26,087 bases of DNA from Desulfobacterales bacterium (lineage in GTDB: Bacteria; Desulfobacterota; Desulfobacteria; Desulfobacterales; RPRI01), in NCBI GenBank assembly GCA_020052975.1, contig JAGVOC010000165.1, positions 1 through 26,087 on the forward strand. The letters run 5' to 3'. The stretch's first letter is position 1, and every line of letters begins with the position of its first letter. The translations under genes and the position numbers were made by a program. Positions 3,102-25,106 of the stretch are shown piece after piece. Under the pieces are notes generated by a model. It was not told the origin of the DNA. It saw only the letters and a list, made by a program, of their open reading frames with translations, and searched no databases.

Positions 3102-3130
3102 ATTCGAAGTACGATGTACGATATTCGATG
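3102..3130. repeat. Heptamer array (ATTCGAA/GTACGAT units)
   Basis: Successive 7-mers ATTCGAA, GTACGAT, GTACGAT, ATTCGAT form a short array of about four units just upstream of the small plus-strand ORF at 3145. It has the same 7-nt period as the other arrays in the window but a different unit. Confidence 0.6.
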
Positions 3131-3144
3131 CAGGGGAGGCTATA

Positions 3145-3336
3145 ATGATTAATGAGGTGAAAAACAATTGGCCGTTAGTGCCGGTGCACACTCCGGATGT
3201 TACCGTCCTGCGAAAAGATTCTGCTGTTCAGTTTTCTTCGGAACGCCGTAAGGGTTCGATTGCCTTTGAAAACAAGGCTCGGCACACATCGACTTATTTC
3301 TGGGAAAAGGGAGCATTTGTGGATATTTTTGTCTGA
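3145..3336 (+). CDS. Small hypothetical protein (63 aa)
   Basis: 63 aa, beginning MINEVKNNWPLVPVHT and ending FWEKGAFVDIFV. I do not recognise the family. The case for a real gene is a strong ribosome binding site (GGGGAGG 5 nt before ATG), an intergenic position between two minus-strand operons, and a plausible soluble, mixed-charge composition without long low-complexity runs. Against it are the small size, the lack of a promoter I can see (a heptamer array occupies 3102-3130), and an overlapping 83-codon minus-strand frame at 3175-3426. No signal peptide or membrane segment is visible. Confidence 0.4.
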   Translation: MINEVKNNWPLVPVHTPDVTVLRKDSAVQFSSERRKGSIAFENKARHTSTYFWEKGAFVDIFV

Positions 3337-3414
3337 TCGTAACTGCTCAGGTTTCTGGTTCAAGACCTTCCGCCTTTCTTCATCCTTCAGCCCATCTGCC
3401 AAAATAATTACTTT

Positions 3415-3517
3415 TGACGGACTCATAAAAAATCATACGCGACCGGATTTGAGATTTTTGAGAAATCCCCCAAAAATTCATTGAGTTAGCATGGTTGAAC
3501 TTTTTACGAACACATTA
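3415..3517. repeat. Short MITE derivative beside the MotE-like gene
   Basis: The left end TGACGGACTCATAAAAAATC (3415-3434) matches the 9203 copy's end TGATGGACTCGTAAAAAGTC at 17 of 20 positions. The right end GAACTTTTTACGAACACATTA (3497-3517) is a degenerate form of the other terminal repeat and reaches the stop codon of the MotE-like gene. The inner part is only about 60 bp and does not resemble the long copies, so this is probably a deletion derivative or a related element. Confidence 0.55.
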
Positions 3518-4054
3518 CTTTGCGGCAAGTCCTTCAACAATTCTTGCAGCTTTTTCTCTATCAAGAAAAGACAGAATAGCTCCGACGGTTTCTCCTTTCA
3601 TTTGGGAAAGCAGCTCAACGGCAAAGTTCCTGTCAAGTTTTCCTATCACTTCAGCCGCACTCTGAGGTTTCATTGCCGAATACGCTTTTATCAGGTGTTT
3701 GAGCCTCTGTCCGTCAATCGTTTCTTTTTTGGCCAAATCGTTTTTTATCTCTGCCCTGAGCTTCGTCAGTTTTTCCATTTTAATGCCGATCTCATCTCTG
3801 ATGGCTTTCAGATCTTCTTCCTGTGTTTTAAGTTCGGCATTCTTTTGTAAAAGTACTGCCAGATCGATTGTTTTATCTTCCCGGACGGCTGCCGGCTGGT
3901 CTGTTTTCACTTCTGCGGTTGTCTTCTGTTCCGCGGCAATGGCATTTGTGACCCATAATACGGGGTATAGTTCCGCCCGGAAAATATATAATGACACAAG
4001 TATTATTTTTAGAAAGAGCAAAGCTGCGAAAGAAACACAGGTTAATGATTTCAT
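3515..4054 (-). CDS. MotE-like protein with MgtE N-terminal-type domain
   Basis: 179 aa. An N-terminal hydrophobic segment (about residues 8-30) acts as a signal anchor, so the rest should be periplasmic. It is followed by a charged coiled coil (about 65-115) and a C-terminal helical repeat with LLSQMKGETVGAILSFLDRE, typical of the MgtE_N domain. This architecture is that of MotE, a periplasmic chaperone or partner of the flagellar stator partner MotC in alphaproteobacteria; similar proteins follow fliJ in many other flagellar operons. The start overlaps the fliJ stop as ATGA, implying translational coupling. The stop at 3515 touches the end of a repeat element. Confidence 0.75.
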   Translation of the reverse strand: MKSLTCVSFAALLFLKIILVSLYIFRAELYPVLWVTNAIAAEQKTTAEVKTDQPAAVREDKTIDLAVLLQKNAELKTQEEDLKAIRDEIGIKMEKLTKLRAEIKNDLAKKETIDGQRLKHLIKAYSAMKPQSAAEVIGKLDRNFAVELLSQMKGETVGAILSFLDREKAARIVEGLAAK

Positions 4055-4497
4055 AAGCTTATCCTTTTCTCTCTGATGATGGCTGTTTCATCAAGTTCCT
4101 TTTGTTCTTCTTTTTCGGATATCTCCCGATATCGGCAGCTCTGAATTTCCCTTAACGTCTCCAATGTTTTTTTCTTTACTGATTCCTTTTTCAGGAACGT
4201 CCTGTGCAGCTGAACTGCCGCCTCTGTTTTTTTCAGGGCAAGATCGCCCGCTTCCTGGTCGTCGTTCAATTTCTGAAAAAAGTGATAATAGTGCCGGTAC
4301 CGGGCAACATCCATTCCTTTCCGTTTTTCCTCGCTGCATTCTCCCGAAAGTTCTTTGCGTTTCGCAACGATCACTTTAACCGAATTTTCCATCATATTAT
4401 GCTCGTTTATTGTATTGATTAATTTTATCTGAGCTTTTGTTTCCAGATATTTCCGATAGCGTAATACTTTTTCGAACCTGAAGGAAAACTTTTTCAT
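4051..4497 (-). CDS. fliJ: Flagellar export chaperone FliJ
   Basis: 148 aa, almost entirely a charged antiparallel coiled coil, beginning MKKFSFRFEKVLRYRKYLE, the usual FliJ opening (F-x-F-x-x-V-L-x-x-R). FliJ sits in the centre of the FliI hexamer and links it to FlhA, and helps recycle export chaperones. It starts 1 nt after the fliI stop with GAGGGG upstream, and its stop overlaps the next gene by 4 nt. Length matches the family (about 145-150 aa). Confidence 0.9.
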   Translation of the reverse strand: MKKFSFRFEKVLRYRKYLETKAQIKLINTINEHNMMENSVKVIVAKRKELSGECSEEKRKGMDVARYRHYYHFFQKLNDDQEAGDLALKKTEAAVQLHRTFLKKESVKKKTLETLREIQSCRYREISEKEEQKELDETAIIREKRISL

Positions 4498-4498
4498 T

Positions 4499-5830
4499 TC
4501 AATTCCCCTCGAGCAATAAATTCAGCCGCGAAAGGCTCTCATCAAAACTCATCTTTTGATGAATATCCTGCTGGAGGAACGCATTGATCTTCCCGATCAT
4601 TCTTTTTGCAAAATCGATATCAGGATCGCTGCCGTCAGCATAAGCCCCAATGTTAATCAAGTCCTCGGCATTCCTGTAAGTGGAAAGGATTTTGACCATT
4701 TTTTTTGCGCTGTCAAGGTGGCCGGATGCAACGATATCTTTCATTACTCTGCTGATACTTGCCATTACATCTATCGCCGGATAGTGACCACGGTGTGCAA
4801 GGGCTCTGGACAGAACGATATGCCCATCCACGATGGATCGGACGGCATCGGCTATCGGCTCGCTCATATCATCTCCCTCGACCAGCACGTTGTATATACC
4901 CGTAATACTTCCCTTCTTCTCAATATTGCCGGCCCGTTCGAGAAGTTTCGGCAACTGGCTGAAAACGCTTGGCGTATATCCTTTTGCTGTTGGGGGCTCT
5001 CCAGCCGCAAGACCAACCTCTCTCAATGACATGGCCACCCTGGTTATTGAATCCATAAGAAGGAGAACATCCGACCCATTATCTCTGAAATATTCTGCCA
5101 GAGCAGTGGCGAGATACGCCGCTCTTATCCTGACCAGGGCGGGCGCATCTGATGTCGATGCAACAACAATCGATTTTTTTATCCCGATCTCACCCAAATC
5201 TTTTTCGACGAAATCTCTGACTTCCCTGCCCCGTTCACCGATCAATGCGATTATTGCAACATCTGCCGCTGTATTCCTTGCCATCATACCCATCAACACG
5301 CTCTTTCCGACTCCCGATCCGGACATGATCGCCATTCTCTGCCCCTTGCCCACGGTTATCAGGGCGTTGATCGCTCTGACGCCTACATCCATAACTTCCT
5401 TGACAATTCCTCTTTGCAACGGGTTAAGGAGATTCCCATAAGTCGGATACTCACCATCCGGCTTTATGACTCCTTTGCCGTCTATCGGCCGGCCGAGTCC
5501 GTCAACCACCCTGCCGAGATATTCTTTCCCCACAGGTACAGTCGGCTTGTTGCTTATTTCGACAATTCTGCTGCCCGGCTTTATGCCCCTCATTTCTCCA
5601 AACGGCATCAGGAATAATCGCTGGTCTTTGAATCCGACAACCTCCGCTCTTATATTATGCCCGGGTGTGGTTTCGATCTCGCAAAGGCTGCCGACACTGA
5701 GCCCCGGCCCGTTTGCTTCAGCAACAATTCCCGCCAGTTTTATGATCCTGCCCTGTAGCCGGAGGGGCCGGCAGGTCTCCAGCGATTCAGTATATTTGCT
5801 CCAATTGATCTGTCCGTTCAGGTCAGTCAT
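4499..5830 (-). CDS. fliI: Flagellar export ATPase FliI
   Basis: 443 aa from the ATG at 5830. FliI is the hexameric ATPase of the flagellar type III export gate, related to F1-beta. Visible motifs are Walker A (GSGVGKS), Walker B (VLLLMDSITR), and the conserved AAGEPPTAKGYTPSVFSQLP. I prefer ATG 5830 (MTDLNGQINWSKY) over an in-frame TTG at 5857, because the ATG gives the usual length and overlaps the fliH stop by 8 nt (ATGACTGA), a common coupling arrangement. A GGAG abuts the ATG, so its own ribosome site is poor and coupling is likely. Confidence 0.95.
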   Translation of the reverse strand: MTDLNGQINWSKYTESLETCRPLRLQGRIIKLAGIVAEANGPGLSVGSLCEIETTPGHNIRAEVVGFKDQRLFLMPFGEMRGIKPGSRIVEISNKPTVPVGKEYLGRVVDGLGRPIDGKGVIKPDGEYPTYGNLLNPLQRGIVKEVMDVGVRAINALITVGKGQRMAIMSGSGVGKSVLMGMMARNTAADVAIIALIGERGREVRDFVEKDLGEIGIKKSIVVASTSDAPALVRIRAAYLATALAEYFRDNGSDVLLLMDSITRVAMSLREVGLAAGEPPTAKGYTPSVFSQLPKLLERAGNIEKKGSITGIYNVLVEGDDMSEPIADAVRSIVDGHIVLSRALAHRGHYPAIDVMASISRVMKDIVASGHLDSAKKMVKILSTYRNAEDLINIGAYADGSDPDIDFAKRMIGKINAFLQQDIHQKMSFDESLSRLNLLLEGN

Positions 5831-6575
5831 CTCCGTTTCCCGTATATGCTTCTTCAAGGCATTGGCGGATCATCTCCAGTTGCGTTTCCACCCGCGCATC
5901 AACATCCCCGAAGGGGGTTTCAAGGAAACACCCTCCTCTCCTGACTGATGGATTGGAAACGACCTCCATCGATTCCAATTGATTGAACCGCTGGAAAAAT
6001 TCCGGCCTTAACCGGTCGATATAATCAAATTCCTCAGGATTTATTTTAAGGAGGATGGATCTCTTTTCCGTTGCAAGTTGAATCGCCTTGATGACTGTTT
6101 CCCTTATTGTCGCCCCGTTCAGCCCGACCTGATGGTGAACGACCTTTTCCGCAACCGAACAAATAAGTCCAAGTATATCATTTTCATAACGTTTAACTAT
6201 GTCGGTTCGTAAACGGCCTATTTCATCCAGAAGATTCTCTATGTTCTCAACGATTTTCAGTGCCTTTAAGGCGCCTAATTCCAGTCCGTCTTTTTCACCC
6301 TGTGCAAAGCCTTTCTCATATGCCTCCCGTTCCAGCATGGCGGCTTTTTCACGGGATCTCTCCATGATATCATCCGATCCTTCATTTTTCCTGTAGTTAC
6401 CTTTGCCATCTATTTGATGAAAGACCGCGTTTTCCACTCCTGCGGTTTGAAGCGCCGTAAAAAGTCTGTTTTCGTTTTTTTCCGCGGCGGGAAATGAATC
6501 AAAAGGCTTTATTTCATATTGTTTCAACACATAGTCTTTTCTATGTATATTAATGGTATGATCAGACAAATACAT
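5823..6575 (-). CDS. fliH: Flagellar assembly protein FliH
   Basis: 250 aa. FliH is the peripheral stalk that anchors and regulates FliI at the C ring. The middle has the helical AYEKGFAQGEKDGLELGAL segment with GxxxG-type spacing, followed by a conserved C-terminal globular part (ICSVAEKVVHHQV, then VRRGGCFLETPFGDVDARVE). The first 70 residues are variable. The gene overlaps the end of fliG by 14 nt and the start of fliI by 8 nt, in the standard fliF-G-H-I-J order. Confidence 0.92.
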   Translation of the reverse strand: MYLSDHTINIHRKDYVLKQYEIKPFDSFPAAEKNENRLFTALQTAGVENAVFHQIDGKGNYRKNEGSDDIMERSREKAAMLEREAYEKGFAQGEKDGLELGALKALKIVENIENLLDEIGRLRTDIVKRYENDILGLICSVAEKVVHHQVGLNGATIRETVIKAIQLATEKRSILLKINPEEFDYIDRLRPEFFQRFNQLESMEVVSNPSVRRGGCFLETPFGDVDARVETQLEMIRQCLEEAYTGNGDD

Positions 6576-7584
6576 CTTCTTTCCCTTTTCCTGAAAGAAT
6601 TATTTTGCCTTCTGCCTCCAGCTTCTTGGCCGCTTTGATAATCAACTGCTGATTATCTTCAACTTCTTTAAGCCTGACAGGACCAAGGACTTCCAAGTCT
6701 TCTTTAAGCATTTCGGCAGCTCTTTCAGATAAATTTGAAAATATTTTTTGTTTCATATCATCAGAGGAGGTTTTCAAGGCCCTTATAATGACATCATTGT
6801 TGATGTTTTTCAGAATTTCCCTGAAACCCTTGTCGTCAATCTTTAACAAATCTTCAAACAGGAACATCTTCTGACGTATCTTTTCAGCCAGCTCACCATC
6901 CTCTTTTTCTATATGCGACATGATGCTTTTTTCGGTTTTGCCGTCCACCTCGTTTAAAATGCTGGCCAGCGCATCAATCCCGTTGAACTTTTTTGTTGAA
7001 CTTGTTCCCAGGCTGTTGATCTCATTCTTGATTATCTCGTCAAGGTCCCTGATGACATCGGTCTGGACTTCCCCGATCTGCAATATTCTTAATGCTATAT
7101 CGGCCTTGATCTCATCCGGGAACAGACAAATAATTTCAGCGGCCTTCTCCTGCGGGAGGTTGGAAAGGATCAGCGCAATCGTCTGTGGATGCTCGTTCTT
7201 AAACACATTGATCACGCTTTTTGCCGGAAGATAGGCAAGCTCGCCGAAAGGAGCATTTTCATTTTCCCTTTCAATAGATTTGAAAGCCTCCCTGACCGGA
7301 GACTCACCCGAAGATTTATCCGCCACCTGCTTCAAAAACGATTTGCCGGACATATTGATTGACTTGTCATTTTCATAGCTTCTAGCGAATTCATCCATAA
7401 CCGAATTCAAAACATTCGGAGGAACAAAGGATATTTTCGACATATACCTGCCGATATTCTTGATGGCATTTTCATCTATTTTTTTAAAGAATGAGGCCGT
7501 AAATTCTTCACCCATCGCCATCAGCAGAATCGCCGATTTCTGGAGTCCTGTTATTCTTTTGGGATCATTTATGTCTGCGTTCAT
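6562..7584 (-). CDS. fliG: Flagellar motor switch protein FliG
   Basis: 340 aa, the normal length. FliG joins the MS ring to the C ring and contacts the stator to generate torque. Family features visible are the FliF-binding N-terminal domain, the middle domain with EHPQTIALILSNLPQEKAAE, and the C-terminal torque helix region (MFLFEDLLKIDDKGFREIL, and later LGPVRLKEVEDNQQ). The start ATG at 7584 lies 3 nt after the fliF stop, so translation is probably coupled to fliF. Confidence 0.97.
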   Translation of the reverse strand: MNADINDPKRITGLQKSAILLMAMGEEFTASFFKKIDENAIKNIGRYMSKISFVPPNVLNSVMDEFARSYENDKSINMSGKSFLKQVADKSSGESPVREAFKSIERENENAPFGELAYLPAKSVINVFKNEHPQTIALILSNLPQEKAAEIICLFPDEIKADIALRILQIGEVQTDVIRDLDEIIKNEINSLGTSSTKKFNGIDALASILNEVDGKTEKSIMSHIEKEDGELAEKIRQKMFLFEDLLKIDDKGFREILKNINNDVIIRALKTSSDDMKQKIFSNLSERAAEMLKEDLEVLGPVRLKEVEDNQQLIIKAAKKLEAEGKIILSGKGKEDVFV

Positions 7585-9202: not shown

Positions 9203-9357
9203 TGATGGACTCGTAAAAAGTCCATATTCGGACGGCAAAGTAAAAAACTCATTATGCAAGGCGCGCGAATCTTGAGGAATGAAGCGTAATAATTGGTACG
9301 CTGCAATAACGAAAGATGAAGCGCAACACAGCAGAATGACTTTTTACAAAGCCATCA
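9203..9357. repeat. MITE-like element, copy 2 (fliE-fliF gap)
   Basis: 155 bp bounded by TGATGGACTCGTAAAAAGTC and, at the right, GACTTTTTACAAAGCCATCA; as an inverted pair these match at about 16 of 20 positions. The right terminal bases include the fliE stop codon (TGA, 9355-9357). This is the best-preserved copy at both ends. It carries a central AGCGTA/TACGCT hairpin and two related internal sub-repeats around GAATGAAGCG and AGATGAAGCG. No ORF fits. I see no clear target-site duplication. Confidence 0.85.
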
Positions 9358-9646: not shown

Positions 9647-9793
9647 TTATAACTCCTTAGAAGATAGAATCCAGAAGCCAGAATCCAGAATAGAAGCAGT
9701 ATATGCCTTCATCAATTTACTCACTTCTTCAAGTTGGGACATCAACTGTAATACATCACCATAACCAGGATCTTTAGCCGGCATCCTTTTCAT
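9647..9793 (-). CDS. Possible 48-aa ORF between flgC and fliE
   Basis: An open frame from ATG at 9793 to TAA at 9649-9647: begins MKRMPAKDPGYGDVLQLMSQ, then an amphipathic helix (LEEVSKLMKAYTASI), then a tail ILDSGFWILSS read from a heptamer array. A ribosome site GGAG lies 5 nt upstream, itself inside the other arm of the inverted array. The first 35 residues are not repeat-derived and look protein-like. It could be a real small gene, the remnant of a larger one broken by the array, or chance. I know no homologue. Confidence 0.33.
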   Translation of the reverse strand: MKRMPAKDPGYGDVLQLMSQLEEVSKLMKAYTASILDSGFWILSSKEL

Positions 9794-9829
9794 TCTGGCT
9801 CCTGAATTCTGGCTTCTGGCTCCTGAATA
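9658..9829. repeat. Inverted heptamer arrays (CCAGAAT/TTCTGGC family) in the flgC-fliE gap
   Basis: The left arm (9658-9691) reads as 7-mers ATCCAGA, AGCCAGA, ATCCAGA, ATAGAAG. The right arm (9792-9829) reads TTCTGGC, TCCTGAA, TTCTGGC, TTCTGGC, TCCTGAA. The arms are reverse-complementary and about 100 nt apart, so the flgC-fliE transcript could fold into a large stem with the 48-aa ORF in its loop. The right arm ends at the flgC stop codon. Confidence 0.8.
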
Positions 9830-9830
9830 G

Positions 9831-10256
9831 TTATGTTTTCCCTATTTCCAGTGCTTTTAGAACCATTTGGCGCGTCGATTTCAGAGCTGCAAGATTGGCC
9901 GCAAAGGCGTTTCGGGCCATCAGCATGTTCGTCATTTCAACAACAAGATCCACATTGGGTTTTTGCAGGTTTCCGTCCTTATCAGCATCGGGATGGCCGG
10001 GATTATGGACCATTTTAAAAGGCGTTTTATCCTCTACGATTGCGTCAACCCGAACCCCTTCGATTTGTGACCCGAGCATATCGCCGAAGTCATCGATCGG
10101 TTCAGCGACCACGGCAATCATTTTTCTCCTGTAAGGCCCGCCCTTTTCGGTACGGGTGGTTTCGATGTTTGAAAGGTTTCCGGCAATAACATCCATTCTT
10201 TTTCTCTGGGCAAAGAGCCCCGATGCGCTTATTTTCAGCGAATCTAAAAAATTCAT
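9831..10256 (-). CDS. flgC: Flagellar proximal rod protein FlgC
   Basis: 141 aa. It has the rod-protein N-terminal motif (DSLKISASGLFAQRKRMDVI, AGNLSNIETTRT) and the C-terminal FlgC pattern (PNVDLVVEMTNMLMARNAFA, then LKSTRQMVLKALEIGK). Part of the axial rod, exported through the type III gate. ATG 10256 is preceded by GGAGGGCGTTAGT, the last codons of flgB, so the ribosome site lies in flgB and the two genes are probably coupled. The stop is followed at once by a heptamer array. Confidence 0.95.
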   Translation of the reverse strand: MNFLDSLKISASGLFAQRKRMDVIAGNLSNIETTRTEKGGPYRRKMIAVVAEPIDDFGDMLGSQIEGVRVDAIVEDKTPFKMVHNPGHPDADKDGNLQKPNVDLVVEMTNMLMARNAFAANLAALKSTRQMVLKALEIGKT

Positions 10257-12075: not shown

Positions 12076-14733
12076 CTATCTCCTGTTCTTACCGGGGTAA
12101 ACTTTCCTGAGCATCTCCTCAAACTCTATTGATTCCATCCTTTCTTTGGCAACACGGCTCCATAACGGATCATTAAGTCCGGCAAGCTGGTTGTAGAGAG
12201 GAATATAATCGCTTTTCTTATTAAGCGCCTCATAGCATCGCGCAATTGAAAACTTCAGTTTGGCGCTCTGTTTTTCATCTTTTTCAAATGACAGGGCATC
12301 ATTGAACAGTGAGAGGGCCTCTGCCGGACGTCCGATATGGAAATAGAGGTCTCCAACCTCCTGATAAAGGGATTGACTCTTTTCCTGTCTTTCCGCCAGG
12401 GATTGTTCTGCATATCGCGCTACCGCCAGACTCTCTTCATTTAAACCGGATGCCGTTAAGGCCCGCGCCTTATCCATCATGATATATATTCCGTCATCGA
12501 GTCCCGGACGGCTTTTCAAGGCTTTCGAGAACATTTCAATCGCCTTGGCGTATTCATTATTTTTATGAAAGACGACACCTTTTAAATGGTAAGCTTTTGC
12601 AGAATATTTCCCGGACGGGTAGTTAATAATGAGGGAATTCAGTTTTTCCACTCCATTTTCAGGCTGCCCCTTTTCTAAAAAATATTTTCCCAGATAAAAA
12701 AGAAGCTCTTCAGGTTTTTTTTCTTTCGGCAAAAGGGCATCAGCCCTCTGGAATAATTCGGCAGCCATCTCCTGAAATCCCAGACCCTGGTACGCTACGG
12801 CAACAGCTATGAATGTCCTCGGAGGCGCAAGCCGCTGAATAGGCTCTTTTTGTTTCTGATATATGTTTAGAATTTTGATGTATTCATCTTCTCCTTTATC
12901 CTCGAGAACTGCCTCAAATGTATCGCTCAAAGCGTATACGATTTCCGGAAGCAACTTTGACAGAGGATATTTTTCCAATAAATCTTTCAATATATCCAGA
13001 CTTTTCCCATTGTTTTTTCCTTTTCGATGAATAATGGCGAGTTTAAGCAACGCATACTCAACCATTGGACTATTATTTTTTTTACTGATCAATTCACGAA
13101 TCAATTCTTCATATATCTCACGGGGTGATGCAATCGCTTCATCGATAATTTTAAAGGGGGCCGGAATCCCCTCCGTTATTTTCATTTCTCCGCTTTCCTG
13201 TTCTTCCGCGAGACGTGTCAGGCTGATAAGTGCTCCTTCCGTTTGCGGGAATCGGGTAAGAACCAATTGATATATTTTTGCCGCCGCATTCGTAAATCCT
13301 TCAGCCCGGTATGAATCTCCTATCTTGCTTAACACCAGAGGGCATGTTTCACTGCCGGGACAAATATTATAATACCTGAACAGGTTTTTCCTCGCCTCGG
13401 CATAATCTTTTTTCTGGTAATAATTATACCCAAGGTAGAGAAAGATATCCGGATAGCGGTATATATTTTCAGGCCGTTGCGCCAGCCGTGTAAGCAGGGT
13501 GATCGATTTATCAAAACTGTTTATCTCAAAAAGCGCTTTTGCCGCGCCTATCTCCGCTTCCGTTTCCGCAAAAGAGCCGCCATAATTTTGAATGATAAGC
13601 TCATAAATGGAAAGCGCTTCCGCGTATTTGCCCCTTTGAAACAGCAGATTACCCTTTTGAATCATTGCCTTCACACAGGAAATTTCGTCGGGTTTTTTTT
13701 CAATAACGAGGTTAAAATATCCTATAGCCTCATCGTAGCTTTTGACTTTCAGGCAGATATCTCCCACGGACAGCAGAGCATCAGGAGCAAAGTTGGACGC
13801 AGGAAACCTGTAAATTGCATCATCGTAATGACTTTTTATCACTGAAAAATGTTCCGAAGGTGTTTGCGAATGCAATTGTTCTATCGATTTCGCCAGTAAA
13901 AAGTATGCTTTCTCAGAATATCGCCCTTTAGGATAAGTCTTGATGAGATGTTTCAGGCTTTTTTCTGCTTCAGGCCAGCCCTGCCGCTTGAAAGCCTCTA
14001 CTCCTTTCAAAAACAGCGCTGTGTCTTCGCTTCCGTCGTTTGTTTCGATCTGCATCATTTTTTCAAGCAGTAAAGCAGGGGTGGACTGTGACAGGTCCTT
14101 CGATACTGATACTTCCGTATTTCCGGACGTTGCCTCTTTCACAGAACCGGCATGATTATACTCCGTTTCGTGCGGACCATTATTTTCTTCAGAGACAGAT
14201 GACTTGTAACCAGTCGGATTCGTTTCCTTAGCGTTCATAATCTTTGCTCCGGAGTCCGTACTGACCCCTGAACCCTGGCCCCTGAACCCTGGCCCCTGAC
14301 TCCCCTCTCCAAGCATGATAATCAGTTCATGATCGCCCTGCCGATATGTAGACTTAGGAATATCGGAACCTTTCAACTCAAATGCCAGCCTGATCTTATT
14401 GGGATGATATTCGACCATGATACTTTTCAAATACGAACTTTTTATAGATCGGTCCACATTTGAGAACGGCATGCCATCGTAATAGAGGTCATATATGATT
14501 CTGGGCGGCGCATTCAGAAACATGGTTTTTTCTACCGTCATTTTTCCGACGCTTTTTATGGTGAGGATTGTTCTCTGGTTGTTTTCTGCCGCAGAAATAG
14601 AAACAATTTCTTTAAGGTCTTCACCTGTAACGGAGATAAAAGGACCGTCAGCAGCAGCCGATAAATACGGCAGCCCCATAAGCATAAACGTCACTATTAG
14701 AATGTATCGGGTATAACAACGATGTTTTCGCAT
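12076..14733 (-). CDS. AMIN domain and TPR-repeat envelope protein
   Basis: 885 aa from the ATG at 14733. A signal peptide is clear (RKHRCYTR, a hydrophobic core around YILIVTFMLMGLPYL, then SAAA). It is followed by an AMIN-type domain (about 30-140; RTILTIKSVGKMTVEKTMFL, with PPRIIYDLYYDG), a Gly-rich linker at about 143-157 encoded by a heptamer array, and from about 200 many TPR units of the YbgF/BamD type (GWPEAEKSLKHLIKTYPKGR, YSEKAYFLLAKSIEQL). AMIN domains bind peptidoglycan or localise envelope machines, so a periplasmic scaffold for the flagellum or its pole is an inference. An in-frame TTG at 14751 is unlikely as start since it lies within the -12 box of the promoter. Confidence 0.8.
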   Translation of the reverse strand: MRKHRCYTRYILIVTFMLMGLPYLSAAADGPFISVTGEDLKEIVSISAAENNQRTILTIKSVGKMTVEKTMFLNAPPRIIYDLYYDGMPFSNVDRSIKSSYLKSIMVEYHPNKIRLAFELKGSDIPKSTYRQGDHELIIMLGEGSQGPGFRGQGSGVSTDSGAKIMNAKETNPTGYKSSVSEENNGPHETEYNHAGSVKEATSGNTEVSVSKDLSQSTPALLLEKMMQIETNDGSEDTALFLKGVEAFKRQGWPEAEKSLKHLIKTYPKGRYSEKAYFLLAKSIEQLHSQTPSEHFSVIKSHYDDAIYRFPASNFAPDALLSVGDICLKVKSYDEAIGYFNLVIEKKPDEISCVKAMIQKGNLLFQRGKYAEALSIYELIIQNYGGSFAETEAEIGAAKALFEINSFDKSITLLTRLAQRPENIYRYPDIFLYLGYNYYQKKDYAEARKNLFRYYNICPGSETCPLVLSKIGDSYRAEGFTNAAAKIYQLVLTRFPQTEGALISLTRLAEEQESGEMKITEGIPAPFKIIDEAIASPREIYEELIRELISKKNNSPMVEYALLKLAIIHRKGKNNGKSLDILKDLLEKYPLSKLLPEIVYALSDTFEAVLEDKGEDEYIKILNIYQKQKEPIQRLAPPRTFIAVAVAYQGLGFQEMAAELFQRADALLPKEKKPEELLFYLGKYFLEKGQPENGVEKLNSLIINYPSGKYSAKAYHLKGVVFHKNNEYAKAIEMFSKALKSRPGLDDGIYIMMDKARALTASGLNEESLAVARYAEQSLAERQEKSQSLYQEVGDLYFHIGRPAEALSLFNDALSFEKDEKQSAKLKFSIARCYEALNKKSDYIPLYNQLAGLNDPLWSRVAKERMESIEFEEMLRKVYPGKNRR
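14261..14305. repeat. In-frame heptamer array (CCCTGRC units) inside the AMIN-TPR gene
   Basis: On the plus strand the 7-mers ACTGACC, CCTGAAC, CCTGGCC, CCTGAAC, CCTGGCC, CCTGACT run without interruption. On the coding strand they are translated in frame as SQGPGFR followed by GQGSGVS. Three 7-mers equal 21 nt, so the peptide also repeats with a period of 7 residues. It joins the AMIN domain to the TPR region. Confidence 0.8.
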
Positions 14734-14746
14734 ATATCTGGTACAG

Positions 14747-14762
14747 AGCAATTATTATGCCA
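14747..14762 (-). promoter_or_regulatory. Sigma-54 promoter for the AMIN-TPR/activator operon
   Basis: TGGCATAATAATTGCT on the minus strand matches the 16-base consensus fully. The predicted start is near 14736, only 3 nt before the ATG at 14733, so the mRNA would be nearly leaderless or translation would begin at a later ATG (for example 14685). If real, the activator gene downstream is itself under sigma-54 control. Confidence 0.65.
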
Positions 14763-14892
14763 ATAGCACAGGGTCCCGTACAAAGCTTAGTTCACCGGTT
14801 CTTTATAATGATTTTAAAATGTTGAATAGTTGATCTGTTATGAGGTGATATATGGCGGGATGTCATTACTTTGACGATAAAACATATGGCTT

Positions 14893-14980
14893 CCGGTTGC
14901 CGGTTACCCCTGCCCCCTTAACCCTGGCCCCTGCACCCTGACCCCTGGCCCCTATTTTTCCGGCCCCTGCCCCCTGATTA
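14893..14980. repeat. Mixed heptamer array at the 3' end of the NtrC-like gene
   Basis: Reading the plus strand, CCGGTTG, CCGGTTA, CCCCTGC, CCCCTTA, ACCCTGG, CCCCTGC, ACCCTGA, CCCCTGG, CCCCTAT, then after one extra base CCCCTGC and CCCCTGA. Two unit families (CCGGTTN and CCCCTGN) are joined in register. The last unit touches the stop codon (14978-14980) of the activator gene. The rest of 14763-14892 shows nothing I can name. Confidence 0.85.
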
Positions 14981-16366: not shown

Positions 16367-16425
16367 ATTATTTTACCTTTTTTGTAACTGCTCAGGTTCA
16401 AGGGGGCAAAGGCAGAATAGTTACC

Positions 16426-17325: not shown

Positions 17326-17398
17326 ACAATTAGTCTATTAGGCCTTAGGCTATTAGTTTTTTAGTTTTACCTAACAGCCTACAGCCTTCAGTCTACCC
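17326..17398. repeat. Inverted heptamer array (GGCTGTA family) between cheZ and cheY
   Basis: The plus strand reads CTATTAG/GCCTTAG-type units, then a T-rich loop, then CCTAACA, GCCTACA, GCCTTCA, GTCTACC. TAGGCTATTAG (17346-17356) and CTAACAGCCTA (17371-17381) pair at 10 of 11 positions, giving a hairpin in the mRNA. The array begins shortly after the cheZ stop. Confidence 0.75.
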
Positions 17399-17415
17399 AC
17401 CGGTTCAGTTACCAA

Positions 17416-18225: not shown

Positions 18226-19841
<1,616 letters not shown>

Positions 19842-20228: not shown

Positions 20229-21086
20229 TCAATGCCCTCCAGACATATTAATCAGATCCTCAACAGCTTTGATTTTTTCCCAGAAATCGGCAATTGTTTT
20301 CTGCAAGTCGATATCCGTAAAATTCAACCGGGTCATTACTTCCTGGTAATACCTGTAAGCGAGTCCGTCCGCCCCTCCGCCGATTCCGACCATCATGCAT
20401 ATGGTATCAGCCAGATAAATAATCGGAATTGAAAGGTCATCCTCGAGCAAAATTTTCAGGGGATCATGATGATTCCTGATAATAAATACCATTTCCGGGC
20501 TGAATCTCCAGTTCTCAGCGACCCTGGCGCCTAATTCGGCATGATCAATTCCTATTATCTTCTTTTCCGCTTCAAGAAATGTCAGTCCGTCGTTCTGCAC
20601 GCATAATACAATTTTTTGAAAAGCTTCTTTGATGTGAGTACTTAATACGACCTTGCCTATATCTTTCAACAGCGCTGATGTGAAAAGACAGGGTATGTTC
20701 TTATGATGTTGTTTTTCAGCCAGACTCTTGGCGATGAGTGCCGAGGAAATCGAATATTTCCACAGCTCGCCTTCACTCAGATCATAACCTCCCTGGGCAG
20801 AGGTGAAATTTTTTGAGAAGTTTCCCATTATCACGGCGCCGGCTATATTATTCATTCCGAGATAGGCGACCGCCTGCCTGATGGATACGACCTTTGTTCT
20901 CAAACCGAAGTAAGCTGAATTGCATATTCTGAGAAGATTCGCGGTCATAGCCTGATCGTACTTGATGACATCGACTATCTCCGCCAGAGAACTGTCAGGA
21001 TTGGAGATGATCTCCATAAGCCTGTTGCCTGTAGCGGAAACAGGACTCAGAGAATCGATTTTTTGTATGATTTTATCTATATCCAT
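20229..21086 (-). CDS. HDOD domain protein
   Basis: 285 aa. HDOD domains (an HD-related fold) are common in signalling proteins beside chemotaxis genes; their activity is generally unknown. The family pattern is visible: YDQAMTANLLRICNSAYFGL, VVSIRQAVAYLGMNNIAGAV, FTSALLKDIGKVVLS and HAELGARVAENWRFS. The site that would be HD in HD phosphohydrolases is K141-D142 here, so metal-dependent catalysis is unlikely. It overlaps the end of cheD by 10 nt. A scaffold or signalling role in chemotaxis is inferred from position only. Confidence 0.88.
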   Translation of the reverse strand: MDIDKIIQKIDSLSPVSATGNRLMEIISNPDSSLAEIVDVIKYDQAMTANLLRICNSAYFGLRTKVVSIRQAVAYLGMNNIAGAVIMGNFSKNFTSAQGGYDLSEGELWKYSISSALIAKSLAEKQHHKNIPCLFTSALLKDIGKVVLSTHIKEAFQKIVLCVQNDGLTFLEAEKKIIGIDHAELGARVAENWRFSPEMVFIIRNHHDPLKILLEDDLSIPIIYLADTICMMVGIGGGADGLAYRYYQEVMTRLNFTDIDLQKTIADFWEKIKAVEDLINMSGGH

Positions 21087-21565
21087 TGTATTTTTCTCAA
21101 TTCATTGCCGGATATTTTCATCAGGGCTTCGCCGTTTTTTACTCCAAGCTTTAATGTCCGGTTGACGGTTCCTCCAACATCTTCAAAATCAGTCGTGATA
21201 TTATTTTTCCAGAATATTTTCCTGAGTACGGTGTGGTTACGATTACCGATATTAAACAGCCCTCCCTGGTCGAGGATCTGGGCTCCACCGAGGACCATGA
21301 CTTTAAGGCGGTTTTTCGCGGCGCCGAACTTGTAGGTCTCTTTAAAAAGAAGCGGTATGCCGGTGTCGCCGAACATGAAAGGATTATTTCTGGCTTTCAC
21401 CGGATCAAGGCTTGATTCCGGCAGCATATAATGAAGCACTCCGCCCACTTTTACGAACGGATCGTATATCGCCACTCCGATACATGACCCAAGGGCGTAT
21501 GTAATGATAACCGCTTCCGGGTTATTGCTGACTTTCATGTCTCCCACACCGACTACAAGATCCAT
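21077..21565 (-). CDS. cheD: Chemoreceptor glutamine deamidase CheD
   Basis: 162 aa, the normal CheD length. CheD converts receptor Gln residues to Glu and in some bacteria also regulates CheC. The Cys-His catalytic pair is present: C28 in YALGSCIGVAIYD and H45 in GGVLHYMLP. Further family motifs are KVMVLGGAQIL and IGNRNHTVLRKI. ATG 21565 has AGGGAA upstream. It lies 89 bp after cheA; that gap shows no array. Confidence 0.95.
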   Translation of the reverse strand: MDLVVGVGDMKVSNNPEAVIITYALGSCIGVAIYDPFVKVGGVLHYMLPESSLDPVKARNNPFMFGDTGIPLLFKETYKFGAAKNRLKVMVLGGAQILDQGGLFNIGNRNHTVLRKIFWKNNITTDFEDVGGTVNRTLKLGVKNGEALMKISGNELRKIQWI

Positions 21566-21654
21566 TATGATTCCCTGTATACCTTTAGATAGTATCCATC
21601 CGGAAAAGAGATAGTTTGTTTGAGCATAACGCAGATATCGGACAAAATTGCCAT

Positions 21655-23907
21655 TTATGGATGGACATTAGATACCATCTGAAATATGCTTCCTATATCA
21701 AGGATAAGCCCGACTCTCCCGTCTCCCATTATCACAGAACCGGCCACCCCCTTGATCTCTTTAAGCCATCCACCCAGACTTTTTATGACAATTTCCTCCT
21801 GGCCGATCAGCTCATCCACAAGCAGGCACTTTTTCTTTTCCTGGTTTTCAACAACCACGACCAGTTTTTCCCACGGCGCGATCCTGATTTGTTCCGAAGA
21901 ACCGCTCCCGTTTAACCCGAAAAGCCGGTCAAGACGTATCAGGGGGATCAGAGTGTTCCTGACCTTGATCATTTCACCTTCACCCTTTACGGTAAAATAT
22001 TCATTCTCCTTTGGCTTGAAGGATTCCTGAATATTCAATGTTGGAATAATATATCTTTCGTTCGACACTTTAACGATCATTCCGTCCACTATGGCCAGGG
22101 TAAGCGGCAGCCGGATGAAAAATGTAGACCCTTTATCCGTAACGGACCGCACTTCGACCCTTCCCCTTAACTTTTCAACTTTACTTTTTACAACGTCTGT
22201 ACCGACGCCTCTTCCGGATATGTCCGTCACCTTCTCAGCGGTCGAAAAACCGGGATGGAAAATCAGGTTGTCAATTTCAGCATCCGACAATTTATCTTCC
22301 TGCTTGATCAGGCCGGTGGAGACCGCTTTCTTCAGGATTTTTTCCCTGTTCAACCCCCGGCCGTCATCCTCAATTTCTATAACGATATTACCACCCCTGT
22401 GATATGCCTTTAAATAAATGGTCCCCTGTCTCGGTTTGTTTTTCGCTTCTCTTTCATCCGGAAGTTCCAGGCCGTGGTCTATCGAGTTTCGAATCATATG
22501 AACCATCGGTTCATAAATTTCTTCCATTATATTTCTGTCTATCTCTGTGTCTTCACCGGACATGACAAGTTGTATATCCTTGCCCGCTTTCCTAGAGAGA
22601 TCACGCACAAGCCGCAGCATCTTCTGAAAGGTATTTTTTATCGGCACCATCCTCATCGACATGGCAATATTCTGCAGGCCGGATGTAATAAGATTCAACT
22701 GGTTGGTGATCTGATCGAGCTTTCTGTCCTTGCTGTTCAGAACCGCCTCATGTTGTCTCAGCATCGACTGGGCGATAGCCAGCTCACCGACCATGTCTAC
22801 GATACTATCCAGCTTTGTGGTATCTACCTTCACCTGGAGCATATCCGCAGCGCTGTCGGTCCGTTTCTGCTCCCTGAGAGTGGAAACGACAGTCTTCGCT
22901 TTTATTTTTTCCTGCTCAACAAGTATCTCGCCTATTTTCTTATCGGGTTCCTTTTGCTGGACATCCAGAGCTGTTTTTATATCCGCATCGGTTACCGTAC
23001 CTTTTGCAATCAGCATTTCACCCAATAGTTTTTTGTTCTCTGCCTGGACCGGGGAAATAAGTTGTTCGATTTTCAGCTTGATTCGGCTGATATCTTCATT
23101 CCCTTCAAAAGGATTATCGGTATCTAGTGAGTCTCTGACGCTTTCGATCATGCCCTTCAACAGGTCCACGCTTTCGAGGATAACATCAACTATTTCACCG
23201 TCGATACGCAATTCGCCGTTTCGCGCCTTGTCCAGTAAATTTTCCACTATATGAGCGAATTTATTGATCTTGTTAAAATTGAGAAAGCCTGAAACGCCTT
23301 TAACGGTATGGAAGGGTCTGAATATGGCATTGATCGTTTCGACATCCGTTGGATCCTGCTCAAGGTCCATAAGCCGGACTTCAATCGTCCCCAGGTTGTC
23401 GAGAGACTCGGCAACAAAGTCGGAAATAATTTCCCTGTCCTCCTGACTCATTTTCGTGGGCGGTCCATTGCCTCCGGAATCAATGGCTTCTTTATTATCA
23501 GACGGCCTGTTTGAGGACTCATCCGTTCCTGCGGCCGACGCATCCTTATTAATACCTTTTTCAACGTCCGTATCCCCGGTCGCTTCAGGCGAATCTGATG
23601 GATTACGATCCAAATCAATTTTTTTCCCTTTGGCGATATCCCTGACCATTTCCTGCAACGTGGAGATACCTCTTTCAAAGGGCCCCAAATCCTTTCTTTC
23701 TCCTAAAATGGCTTCTTCAACATACTGTTTCATCGCTTCTGTTATCGAAGTCAGGGCACTCTCTTTTAACGGTTTCGACAGTTCCATGATAGACTCGATT
23801 GATTTTACGGCCTTTCCAAGACCGGAGATATCATCAGCATCAAGCATCACAGTTTCAAGCGCAAGGTTCTCAATTTCCCGATTAAGTTCTTCCAATATCA
23901 ATGTCAT
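21655..23907 (-). CDS. cheA: Chemotaxis histidine kinase CheA with MshEN-like insert
   Basis: 750 aa. Order: an N-terminal helical region without an active His (about 1-95), an acidic linker (96-150), the HPt/P1 domain with H200 (FRPFHTVKGVSGFLNF), then at 294-347 two 24-residue motifs resembling the MshEN/GspE N-terminal domain (LLGEMLIAKGTVTD..., KIGEILVEQEKIKA...), P3 dimerisation (about 358-425), ATPase P4 (HMIRNSIDHGLELPDER, DDGRGLN, GRGVGTDVV) and CheW-like P5 (about 612-748). A classical CheY-binding P2 is not evident, so the MshEN-like part sits where P2 usually lies. CheA autophosphorylates and passes phosphate to CheY and CheB. ATG 23907 has AAGGA upstream. No cheW is adjacent. Confidence 0.95.
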   Translation of the reverse strand: MTLILEELNREIENLALETVMLDADDISGLGKAVKSIESIMELSKPLKESALTSITEAMKQYVEEAILGERKDLGPFERGISTLQEMVRDIAKGKKIDLDRNPSDSPEATGDTDVEKGINKDASAAGTDESSNRPSDNKEAIDSGGNGPPTKMSQEDREIISDFVAESLDNLGTIEVRLMDLEQDPTDVETINAIFRPFHTVKGVSGFLNFNKINKFAHIVENLLDKARNGELRIDGEIVDVILESVDLLKGMIESVRDSLDTDNPFEGNEDISRIKLKIEQLISPVQAENKKLLGEMLIAKGTVTDADIKTALDVQQKEPDKKIGEILVEQEKIKAKTVVSTLREQKRTDSAADMLQVKVDTTKLDSIVDMVGELAIAQSMLRQHEAVLNSKDRKLDQITNQLNLITSGLQNIAMSMRMVPIKNTFQKMLRLVRDLSRKAGKDIQLVMSGEDTEIDRNIMEEIYEPMVHMIRNSIDHGLELPDEREAKNKPRQGTIYLKAYHRGGNIVIEIEDDGRGLNREKILKKAVSTGLIKQEDKLSDAEIDNLIFHPGFSTAEKVTDISGRGVGTDVVKSKVEKLRGRVEVRSVTDKGSTFFIRLPLTLAIVDGMIVKVSNERYIIPTLNIQESFKPKENEYFTVKGEGEMIKVRNTLIPLIRLDRLFGLNGSGSSEQIRIAPWEKLVVVVENQEKKKCLLVDELIGQEEIVIKSLGGWLKEIKGVAGSVIMGDGRVGLILDIGSIFQMVSNVHP

Positions 23908-23925
23908 CAGTTCTGTCCTTTTCTT

Positions 23926-24009
23926 TAGGCTGAAGGCTATAAAACATATAGAAAAGCCTTCTGCCTTCAGCCTATCTATCTTCAGTCTTCAATCTTCAGC
24001 CTATCTACC
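23926..24009. repeat. Inverted heptamer array at the 3' end of the PilZ gene
   Basis: Left arm AGGCTGA, AGGCTAT; right arm GCCTTCT, GCCTTCA, GCCTATC, then ATCTTCA, GTCTTCA, ATCTTCA, GCCTATC. The core on the minus strand, AAGGCTTTTCTATATGTTTT, is nearly the same as in the array at 19296-19374. It encodes the last eight residues of the PilZ protein (VDRLKIED) and its stop. Confidence 0.8.
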
Positions 24010-24584
24010 TTTTTTTTTCGAATAGCCTCTCTCTGCTGCTGAAAAACATAAGCGACAATTTTTTCCCTTCCGGTTTCTTCGATGTTTAGAAATTTTATCC
24101 CGACCTGACACAAGGGCGCATCTTTTCCCTCTAAAGCGTTAATCCGAATGATTTCGCCATATACATCGATATAGAAGAAGGGTAATTTAGAAAGAACTAT
24201 ATTAGCATGAACGATCTGCCCTTGCTTAACCGGTCTGTCTATACAGATATTCATTCCTGATGCGCTTATATTATTACCGGTTCCTTGCCCTAACCACTCT
24301 GAAAATGCTTCATTTTTTGATAACATTGACAAAATACGATCCAATTTCTCATCCATTCTGACAAAAAATTCCGCCACACCGTCATTAATTGCATAACCTG
24401 TATCCATATTATCGTTATCGGATCGTGCCCGGCCGATCTTTAGTTTTTCTATATCAGGGTTCAACGGCCGGAAGGTTTTTTCTCTGATTGAATGAAATTC
24501 TTCAGGAGTGATAATTTCATATTCAACGGTATATGAAAAATCTCCCCTCACGTCCGAACGCAATTCTCTTTCGTTCGAAATCAT
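23982..24584 (-). CDS. PilZ domain protein, probable cyclic-di-GMP sensor
   Basis: 200 aa from ATG 24584, chosen for AGGAGG 6-7 nt upstream; an in-frame TTG at 24608 is weaker. Both PilZ ligand motifs are visible: RxxxR at R9-R13 (LRSDVRGDF) and NxSxxG at N105-G110 (NISASG), followed by the beta-barrel strands (GQIVHANIVLSKLPFF, then CQVGIKFLNI). Between the motifs there are about 90 residues, partly helical (VRMDEKLDRILSMLSKNEAF), instead of about 20-30; helical insertions of this kind occur in oligomeric PilZ proteins. First gene of the chemotaxis operon, so cyclic-di-GMP input into motility is a reasonable inference. The last eight residues come from a repeat array. Confidence 0.85.
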   Translation of the reverse strand: MISNERELRSDVRGDFSYTVEYEIITPEEFHSIREKTFRPLNPDIEKLKIGRARSDNDNMDTGYAINDGVAEFFVRMDEKLDRILSMLSKNEAFSEWLGQGTGNNISASGMNICIDRPVKQGQIVHANIVLSKLPFFYIDVYGEIIRINALEGKDAPLCQVGIKFLNIEETGREKIVAYVFQQQREAIRKKKVDRLKIED

Positions 24585-24655
24585 CTGCCCCTCCTCTTCC
24601 CTGCGCAAATTATTTATTTTTTACACCCGACAGGAAAATAACTGCAATTATTGAA

Positions 24656-24671
24656 TGCAAACTTTGTACCA
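24656..24671 (-). promoter_or_regulatory. Sigma-54 promoter for the PilZ-cheA operon
   Basis: TGGTACAAAGTTTGCA on the minus strand matches the sigma-54 consensus at every fixed position. Predicted start near 24645 and a leader of about 60 nt to the PilZ ATG at 24584. Confidence 0.85.
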
Positions 24672-24681
24672 GAAATCAGTG

Positions 24682-24759
24682 GTCAGGGGGGCAGGGGTTG
24701 GGAGTCAGTTATCAGTTACCAGTTACCAGTTGCCGGTTTACCGGTTACCGGTTGTCAGT
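24682..24759. repeat. Mixed heptamer array in the divergent PilZ-cheR gap
   Basis: Plus-strand units: TCAGGGG, GGCAGGG, GTTGGGA, GTCAGTT, ATCAGTT, ACCAGTT, ACCAGTT, GCCGGTT, then TACCGGTT (8 nt), ACCGGTT, GTCAGTC. Two unit families (CAGGGGN and CAGTTAC) join in register, as in the array at 14893-14980. It lies just upstream of the PilZ promoter. Confidence 0.82.
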
Positions 24760-24763
24760 CCCT

Positions 24764-24796
24764 TGCCGAAGGTCCGCCAAACAGTACGGCGGAATC
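24764..24796. repeat. GGTCCGCC...GGCGGA palindromic repeat, copy 1
   Basis: TGCCGAAGGTCCGCC, a short loop, then GGCGGAATC, able to form a TCCGCC/GGCGGA hairpin. A second copy with the same opening is at 25044-25080, and a half copy (GTGGCGGAATCCCTGAC) at 25003-25019. Confidence 0.65.
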
Positions 24797-24920
24797 TCGT
24801 CAATTATTTGACGTCTCCACCATTTCTTCAGCCAAACCGATTTTGTACCGGAAAACAGGAAATAATTTCCCATGTGACTCATTGTCGTCCCGTTTTTTCC
24901 TGTCAGAGCCGATGCGTGTT

Positions 24921-24947
24921 TCGGGCCGCTCTTCCGGAGCGGTCCGA
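24921..24947. repeat. Strong GC-rich hairpin
   Basis: TCGGGCCGCTC, loop TTCCG, GAGCGGTCCGA: an 11-bp stem with one G-U pair. Neither side has a T-tract, so it is more likely a REP-like palindrome than a terminator. It lies between two divergent operons, where no terminator is needed. Confidence 0.6.
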
Positions 24948-24953
24948 CAAATC

Positions 24954-24980
24954 ATCCTGTTAATCCTGTAAATCCTGTCA
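24954..24980. repeat. Nonamer tandem repeat (ATCCTGTNA)
   Basis: Three 9-nt units, ATCCTGTTA, ATCCTGTAA, ATCCTGTCA. From memory, this unit occurs as an intergenic repeat in many unrelated bacteria. Period 9 sets it apart from the 7-nt arrays. Confidence 0.7.
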
Positions 24981-25012
24981 GATAAGTATTTGTTGTAGCG
25001 CCGTGGCGGAAT

Positions 25013-25106
25013 CCCTGACTACTGGCCACTGACCCCTGCCCTCTGCCGAAGGTCCGTCCGCCATACTGATTGGCGGAAATCCCTGATTCTCTGACCCCTG
25101 ATCCGG
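25013..25106. repeat. Heptamer array interrupted by the palindromic repeat, copy 2
   Basis: CCCTGAC, TACTGGC, CACTGAC, CCCTGCC, CTCTGCC (25013-25047) run into TGCCGAAGGTCCGTCCGCC...GGCGGAAAT (25044-25080), after which CCCTGAT, TCTCTGA and CCCCTGA continue to 25106. The palindrome appears inserted in, or copied with, the array. The array ends just before the cheR promoter. Confidence 0.7.

Follow-up and report, generated by a model that had tools for sequence, protein, structure and literature searches.

This locus raises the question why one genome carries many short tandem arrays that share a unit length of seven nucleotides but not a unit sequence. The stretch concerned, referred to as the window, comprises 26,087 nucleotides (positions 1–26,087 of contig JAGVOC010000165.1) of a Desulfobacterales bacterium (assembly GCA_020052975.1). 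A 2007 survey found heptamer repeats in excess in many bacterial genomes (cited via PMC4679880 and PMC4692102), and explanations have so far been sought in polymerase slippage, G-quadruplexes and translational or nucleoid roles; these papers and the others given below by PMC number are cited for excerpts. The analysis described here points to a gene family. Heptamer arrays are probably the end regions of small insertion elements, or remnants of such elements that lack the gene or carry a deletion. Each element consists of an array, a gene and the same array again, usually inverted, and the gene encodes a member of the four-helix-bundle (FHB) family PF05635 (23S_rRNA_IVP). An intact FHB element measures about 400–500 bp, and the presence of several heptamer families in one genome would reflect several FHB element lineages. 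Read in this way, the window appears to be made up of one deleted FHB element, designated site B, and a series of array remnants.

Arrays were detected with a self-shift scan in which a score of at least 11 defines an array, and the expectation was derived from five Markov-1 resamples. The window contains seven period-7 arrays at this score, compared to a mean of 0.4 in the resamples. Each of the periods 4–6 and 8–13 yields 0 or 1 array (raw counts, as resampling concerned period 7 alone), and the harmonic period 14 yields five. The strong arrays are located at 24705–24753 (score 26.6), 14888–14953 (19.4), 14261–14310 and 19298–19325 (16.6 each), 9658–9691 (16.0), 25015–25047 (12.8) and 3105–3129 (11.4). 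An earlier note on this DNA had listed nine places, all of which indeed hold 7-periodic DNA, and the unit families among them are unrelated, as it had stated. At 17326 and 23926 the arrays are weak, with best sub-stretches scoring 8.8–10.8, so that period alone is insufficient to call them; both are supported by counterparts in a relative and by inverted partners recognized by eye. Two arrays had been said to switch family without losing register. This is the case at 14888–14953, whereas at 24705–24753 the register slips by 1 nt (4% indels according to TRF). Inverted pairs around a spacer had gone unnoticed and are found at 9658/9795 and, by eye, at 19296/19348 and 23926/23955. The numbers of transitions (461) and transversions (680) in the arrays give no sign of stem pairing.

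The excess predicted for the genome as a whole is present in the closest relative, genome G001, with 28 arrays in 165.6 kb against 0.2 expected, in contigs picked for FHB genes or the homologous locus. Genomes G002 and G003, whose stretches were selected in the same way, hold 10 arrays in 65.9 kb and 11 in 120.0 kb. Because of this selection, the comparison of first contigs from FHB-free and FHB-rich genomes, discussed below, is the cleaner one.

FHB genes were matched 14, 25, 6, 1 and 12 times in genomes G001–G005, respectively. No PF05635 match was found in 14 control genomes, nor in the four genomes reached via L010, L011, L013 and L014, and the family is present in 70 of the 118 genomes of a phylum sample. 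The genes are flanked by arrays near the start and stop codons, mostly inverted and each with its own unit. At 58 loci, the mean period-7 score is 13.9 in 57 upstream and 14.1 in 53 downstream flanks, compared to 4.3 in 323 control stretches from the same loci; among periods 4–14, only 7 and its harmonic 14 are far above control, period 8 being slightly raised. The association extends beyond this phylum, as a tblastn search with one FHB returned 24 plasmid records, mostly cyanobacterial, in which the gene is annotated as four helix bundle or S23. In the 18 records analysed, the mean period-7 scores of the FHB flanks are 21.6 and 19.0, while 36 control stretches average 3.7. The plasmid heptamers include (AGTAGGG)n in Nostoc edaphicum, (GGTGACA)n in Anabaena sp. 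90 and (GGGAACA)n in Nostoc C052. Azospirillum has heptamers as well, while Gemmatirosa and Picosynechococcus show no period-7 score and have a best unit of 8 nt. Among 16 annotated plasmid records, the FHB gene is oriented with both neighbours in 11, against both in three and mixed in two; in all 16 the neighbours are protein genes, not rRNA genes.

The full set comprises 118 loci, of which 116 match FHB with a purpose-built profile (all but L019 and L039). After five had been dropped for short flanks, 111 FHB loci with both flanks remained (25, 29, 18 and 39 by round), 93 from Desulfobacterota searches and 18 from plasmids. An array with a unit of 6–9 nt lies beside the gene at 106 of these 111 loci, compared to 14 of 129 random positions in the same loci, and the remaining five show weak repeats by eye. 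The best unit among 7, 8 and 9 nt is found at 84, 19 and 8 loci, respectively; arrays scoring at least 9 in either flank occur at 80 loci for period 7, 26 for period 8, seven for period 9, five for period 6 and 0–3 for periods 5 and 10–12. Unit length is the same as that of the nearest protein neighbour at a fraction of 0.78 of the loci, against 0.62 ± 0.04 after shuffling. In orientation, the paired arrays of 92 loci are inverted at 78, direct at 11 and ambiguous at three.

Not only the unit length but also the unit sequence goes with the protein. Sharing between an upstream array and the reverse-complemented downstream array amounts to 0.448 within a locus and to 0.033 between foreign loci. 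Between loci, the heptamer is shared by 93% of pairs at a protein identity of at least 0.80 (n = 15 pairs), 73% at 0.65–0.80 (n = 67), 18% at 0.55–0.65 (n = 68) and at most 2% below 0.55 (n = 5,521). One subfamily, with the units AGGAGTC/AGAATTC, is present in two phyla, i.e., in Desulfobacterota (L025, L289, L292, L296 and L307) and on cyanobacterial plasmids (L219, L220, L224 and L227), and its proteins are 73–82% identical in the cross-phylum pairs listed. The idea that a common period with unrelated sequences points to one generating cause is thus supported, and of the three candidates that had been offered it is the mobile unit that was found, in the form of FHB insertion elements. The accompanying idea, that no particular sequence is selected for, holds only in part, as the unit sequence is not arbitrary and tracks the FHB subfamily.

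The first contigs of 20 genomes of the phylum without an FHB match were compared with those of 20 genomes having at least five. The FHB-free set holds three period-7 arrays in 286.3 kb, in two stretches (1.05 per 100 kb), whereas the FHB-rich set holds 47 in 284.3 kb, in 11 stretches (16.5 per 100 kb). For the other periods (4–6 and 8–13) the means per 100 kb are 1.5 and 2.2, respectively. This bears on replication slippage with a unit length preferred by the polymerase, which was proposed in 2007 by Mrazek and colleagues (via the excerpts of PMC4679880 and PMC4692102) and would make heptamer arrays anywhere. Slippage fits with the greater likeness of neighbouring units, which differ by 1.75 compared to 3.01 for distant units (the latter inflated by register slips), and with a length difference of 14 nt, or two units, in one array between L219 and L220; it may change the length of arrays after insertion. 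As the origin of the arrays it is disfavoured and highly improbable, because FHB-free relatives show no excess and because the arrays come in with the gene, mostly as inverted pairs; in addition, the heptamer is kept across phyla together with its protein.

That arrays come in with the gene follows from filled and empty versions of the same sites, which, as far as sequence comparison can do so, show joint insertion of the two. Plasmids of Nostoc linckia and Aulosira laxa have flanks 97–99% identical to those in Scytonema and Trichormus, but lack the 406–420 bp of arrays and FHB gene found there. These empty-site identities concern L219 and L220, and five further comparisons were made at 84–97%. 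The target reads GTAATTAA to the right of the insert and GTAATAAA to the left, with 5 bp exact and 7 of 8 matching. The empty L241 has a longer upstream reading frame than L224, where the beginning of the insert holds a stop codon; in L217 the insert comes after a stop codon, in L222 a short stretch is replaced, and in L215 the insert lies antisense between nrdB and nrdA. In Nostoc ATCC 53789, two plasmids share a homologous operon in which their FHB elements sit at different junctions and differ in heptamer. Deleted or gene-less copies occupy the same sites as filled ones in L235 and L239, one per site.

Alternatively, the arrays might be binding sites of FHB or another protein, serving as operators or in translational control, G-quadruplex formation or nucleoid organization, and not parts of a mobile element. 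Such roles have been proposed in the literature (excerpts of PMC4679880, PMC4692102 and PMC8161180). They agree with the position of the arrays near start and stop codons and with the purine-rich sense strand upstream of FHB genes (above 0.5 purine in 76 of 98), features by which the arrays may in addition provide a ribosome site. Insertion is instead indicated by filled and empty sites, copies in two phyla, gene-less and deleted copies and different families at one orthologous site, which makes a purely regulatory explanation very unlikely.

Within the window, site B (9650–9834, minus strand) is recognized as a deleted FHB element by its alignment to the element of L025. It keeps both terminal motifs (reading TAACTATTCAGG, the 9650 end being diverged), both arrays and the codons at the two ends of the FHB gene, and compared to L025 has lost 246 nt within the gene. 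The left array (AGAATCC/AGAAGCC, 9658–9691, plus strand, score 16.0) and the inverted right array (CAGGAGC CAGAAGC CAGAATT, 9795–9827, minus strand, a match of 0.83 to the L025 arrays) enclose a spacer of about 100 bp, the translation of which resembled the end of a four-helix-bundle protein. In L001, the syntenic locus of G001, the structure and the array lengths are unchanged; in L002 the left part is diverged, and the site is absent from L003 and L004.

The other sites are regarded as array remnants. Array A (3105–3129, plus strand, score 11.4) consists of CGAAGTACGATGTACG heptamers; no inverted partner was found for it, its best match is to the arrays of FHB locus L020 (0.62 of 6-mers, against a shuffled mean maximum of 0.16), and a shorter counterpart is present in L001. 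Array C (14261–14310, minus strand, score 16.6) is of the CAGGGGT family and matches the arrays of L066, L058 and L045. It falls within the reading frame of an 891-residue tetratricopeptide repeat (TPR) protein (12076–14751) and is mostly missing in L001/G001; remnants of this kind may therefore add protein sequence. Array D (14888–14953, minus strand, score 19.4) passes from CCGGTTN to CCCCTGN in register, and its site in G001 holds another family, resembling TCGGACT/TTCGNNN. Three sites consist of inverted AGGCTGN arrays on the plus strand. Site E (17326–17400, AGGCTGN-type, with a short spacer) is near-identical in L001/G001 and absent from L003, and its left part matches FHB arrays weakly (0.22 against 0.17 shuffled). 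Site F (19296–19372, score 16.6) resembles the arrays of FHB locus L300, among others (0.37 against 0.18, the right part 0.30 against 0.20) and has a different array of the same family in G001. Site G (23926–24005) is different and longer in G001. Site H (24680–24757, plus strand, score 26.6) passes from CAGGGGN to CAGTTAC/CCGGTTN; its CAGTTAC part resembles the arrays of L016, an FHB locus (0.59 against 0.12), and G001 has a CAGGGN-type pair around another spacer at this site. Site I (25013–25102, minus strand, score 12.8 for 25015–25047) holds CAGGGGT-family arrays without a counterpart in the G001 alignment. Conversely, G001 carries inverted AGGCTGN arrays of about 140 bp and 285 bp where the window has none (window 997–1008 and around 18226–18230). 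The arrays are thus not fixed or identical in length among relatives, a point on which the earlier note had made its proposal depend: between window and G001 their presence, family and length vary, although length is kept at site E and in the two arrays of site B.

Arrays of this kind also occur in denser arrangements elsewhere. Within 20 kb, L279 (G090:C1:1-20000) holds 20 period-7 arrays belonging to several families, more than any other of the 40 first-contig stretches. In L124 (1480–2020), concentric inverted repeats of two or three nested families are seen by eye, as if later elements had entered earlier ones. L117 (900–1580) contains, again by eye, near-identical copies of about 100 bp placed head-to-tail, each with inverted AAGGCTG-type parts.

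Part of the elements have a further feature in common. The motif TAACTRYTCAGG bounds AGGCTGN elements of several genomes as well as the FHB element of L025. It occurs in the window at 3340 and 16385, with an inverted copy at 9822–9833. The first of these is a solitary copy, TAACTGCTCAGG (3340–3351, plus strand, one mismatch to TAACTAYTCAGG). The second belongs to a 41-bp stretch (16384–16424, plus strand, GTAACTGCTCAGGT...AATAGTTAC) with motif-like inverted ends and a heptamer-like core, possibly a mini-element. In the 1.05 Mb formed by the window and L015–L144, 37 matches with at most one mismatch were counted, compared to a mean of 8.3 for three control patterns. The form GTAACTRCTCAGGT is present in 30 of 247 genomes of the phylum with up to 86 copies (G044), whereas its backward control gives 11 matches in all. 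Direct duplications of 8 bp at the target are the hallmark of the IS66 family. Duplications matching at 7 or more of 8 positions flank seven of 23 paired motif elements and none of 2000 mismatched pairs, and L176 (55–2454) contains an IS66-type transposon of 2,399 bp with the same ends as the heptamer elements. By eye, an extra reading frame lies ahead of its transposase.

These observations raise the possibility that the arrays form the subterminal regions of IS66-type miniature transposons that an IS66 transposase moves in trans, with FHB as a mere passenger. Among L015–L074, however, the motif is seen at three FHB loci only (L025, L036 and L043), none of 32 FHB loci with strong arrays has an 8/8 duplication, and no terminal motif is seen at the printed cyanobacterial junctions. 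L176 itself lacks the duplication (0/8) and is the lone one of ten IS66 loci with both ends, and an IS66 transposase was matched in seven of 12 motif-rich genomes, six over the cut-off (these being draft genomes). FHB, on the other hand, is found in all 14 motif-bearing genomes and in 55 of 101 others among the 115 searched for both (Fisher p 7e-4). For the arrays as a whole the passenger explanation is therefore unlikely, though of more than marginal weight, and IS66 as the sole mover is unsupported for most loci. The motif-bearing subset, site B included, was probably moved by an IS66 transposase in trans.

Two other gene families were compared with FHB under a common definition, with 27 Y1_Tnp and 29 GxxExxY loci (of 30 each). 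Matching inverted period-7 flanks occur at 54 of 109 FHB loci, 0 of 27 Y1_Tnp loci and 0 of 29 GxxExxY loci, which rejects both the Y1/RAYT transposase and GxxExxY as owners of the heptamer arrays. With any unit of 6–9 nt the numbers are 103/109, 4/27 and 13/29, respectively. Own inverted flanks (ungapped) exceed the 99th percentile of foreign ones at 45 of 108 FHB, 11 of 26 GxxExxY and three of 26 Y1_Tnp loci. The flanks of GxxExxY genes (PF13366; L353–L382) carry repeats of 8–10 nt, such as CACAGAGGA, CGCAGATTA and CGCTAAGG, and seldom of 7 nt: among 26 loci, seven have an array in either flank at unit 8, six at unit 9, three at unit 10 and three at unit 7, and matching inverted flanks are found at three, three, one and none, respectively. 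Own flanks score higher in direct (17.5) than in inverted (14.2) orientation, so that reading these arrays as inverted is preliminary. These 26 GxxExxY loci, although of ambiguous orientation, suggest that unit length goes with the gene family, and GxxExxY is possibly a sister system.

The FHB protein might recognize its own heptamer, as DNA or RNA, and contribute to spreading the element and its gene-less copies, much like RAYT in the case of REPINs. Unit length would then be the spacing read by an FHB multimer: a ring reading units at fixed spacing would tie unit length to the protein family and leave the sequence free to diverge with the protein. Among solved relatives of FHB, 2gsc and 2rld have five chains each, and 1nig, matched weakly (E 0.011), has one. 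The 2gsc protein, Xcc0516 of Xanthomonas, is reportedly described in the title of a paper as five four-helix bundles; we know of no catalytic residues in FHB. For the subset carrying GTAACTRCTCAGGT or a close form, partly with IS66-type 8-bp duplications, an IS66 transposase would act in trans, and array length may subsequently drift by local duplication and loss. More generally, and more tentatively than the interpretation of the arrays as FHB element ends, these elements could represent a new class of protein-coding mobile elements whose ends are set by unit length and not by sequence. In such a class, a small multimeric protein would read fixed-length tandem units (mostly 7 nt for FHB, 8–10 nt for the unrelated PD-(D/E)XK-like GxxExxY), each subfamily with its own unit sequence, and the element would spread without a known recombinase or constant target duplication; the bacterial heptamer excess would be the footprint of such elements.

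Several observations weigh against FHB elements as the source of the arrays, or against FHB as their mover. Association and joint insertion do not in themselves show that FHB moves the element. At the empty sites there is no constant target duplication (about 5 bp in one case, small replaced or deleted stretches elsewhere), and an 8/8 direct repeat within 45 nt outside the arrays occurs at 0 of the 32 FHB loci with strong arrays; as duplications are not constant, one mechanism for all loci is not established. Taken over all pairs, the Mantel correlation is no more than 0.106 (permutation maximum 0.090; n = 107), because the signal sits in close pairs and distant pairs carry none; in close pairs, gene and heptamer could have stayed together through common descent alone. 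The FHB loci come mostly from the top of score lists, and 11 of 92 have direct arrays. Nine of the 20 FHB-rich stretches are without an array and L279 alone accounts for 20 of the 47, while L254, from a genome without FHB match, has two. G005, despite 12 FHB matches, has five period-7 arrays in 395.9 kb (0.2 expected), barely above periods 10 or 12. Among 174 arrays in 61 sampled stretches, 23 form strict inverted pairs (14 pairs, two around an FHB gene) and 151 are unpaired, so that most arrays are called remnants by inference. In the window itself, the FHB profile gives no match above noise, the remnant at site B being visible only against L025, and for each of 17 window stretches the best match to FHB arrays lies above the mean of the maxima after shuffling (clearly so for A, B, C, G, H2 and I), under a null that is weak because shuffling destroys periodicity.

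The surroundings of the arrays consist of a flagellar and chemotaxis cluster. Its products are FlgD, FliK, FliJ, FliI, FliH, FliG, FliF and two flagellar rod-type proteins, accompanied by two sigma-54 response regulators, the TPR protein, CheZ, CheB, CheX, CheD, a CheA-like kinase, PilZ and CheR. FliF is 92%, 88%, 73% and 72% identical to that of metagenome-assembled relatives, and L001 is syntenic with the window, the longest block having 89% nucleotide identity. An Rfam scan of the window gave nothing at gathering score and no rRNA match. A separate dispersed repeat of about 140 bp at 183–313 and 9210–9357, also present in L001 and with the ends ACTCGTAAAAAGTC ... GACTTTTTACGA, is probably another miniature transposon family.

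FHB elements could account for the occurrence, in many bacteria, of seven-letter repeats that are unrelated in sequence, and a carrier gene makes this question testable at once. They also offer a possible role for PF05635, described as functionally uncharacterised in the excerpt of PMC11270868. FHB genes in cas loci have been reported as an associated function (excerpt of PMC3936711). In L216 and L226 (Anabaena 90 and Pseudanabaena) FHB lies between cas6 and cas4 with heptamer arrays, and in L223 (Picosynechococcus) between cas10/cmr2 and cmr3 with repeats of another unit length; such genes may be insertions.

Published heptanucleotide repeats include three families in Calothrix and GGGNATC in Xanthomonas and Nostoc (PMC4692102), TAACTGA in Beggiatoaceae (PMC4679880) and GGGACCG and MTYCTGA in Geobacter (PMC2700814); a paper on giant sulphur bacteria is related (PMC4853749). 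MacGregor raised both horizontal transfer and a binding protein as mobile element (PMC4679880). The arrays described here are like these in having a heptamer unit, a mostly intergenic location and a patchy spread, and unlike them in being attached to a gene family, no carrier gene being named in the excerpts. No link between heptamers and FHB was found in the open-access literature searched, as far as its excerpts go; preprints and most subscription journals lie outside it, and an earlier description is possible. The constant-size repeats of Bacillus likewise have a fixed unit length and a varying sequence, but their units are 20–21 and 52 nt and the excerpt names no carrier gene (PMC8161180). 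The likeness to IS66-family miniature transposons lies in the terminal motif, in the 8-bp duplications of a part and in the one IS66 element with the same ends, and concerns a subset only. Intervening sequences (IVS) of 23S rRNA have inverted ends. Like FHB elements, they are inserted stretches that encode PF05635 and are thought to spread horizontally (excerpt of PMC11270868), whereas FHB elements lie beside protein genes and not in rRNA, and end in tandem arrays. With the RAYT/REPIN system (excerpt of PMC3116915) the elements share a gene with cognate inverted repeats, gene-less extragenic pairs and several repeat groups, each with its own gene. They differ from it in that no matching period-7 flanks accompany the Y1_Tnp genes of these genomes, that the repeats are tandem arrays of 7 (8, 9) nt and not palindromic REPs, and that the gene, by its PF05635 match, encodes a four-helix bundle instead of a Y1 (HUH) tyrosine transposase.

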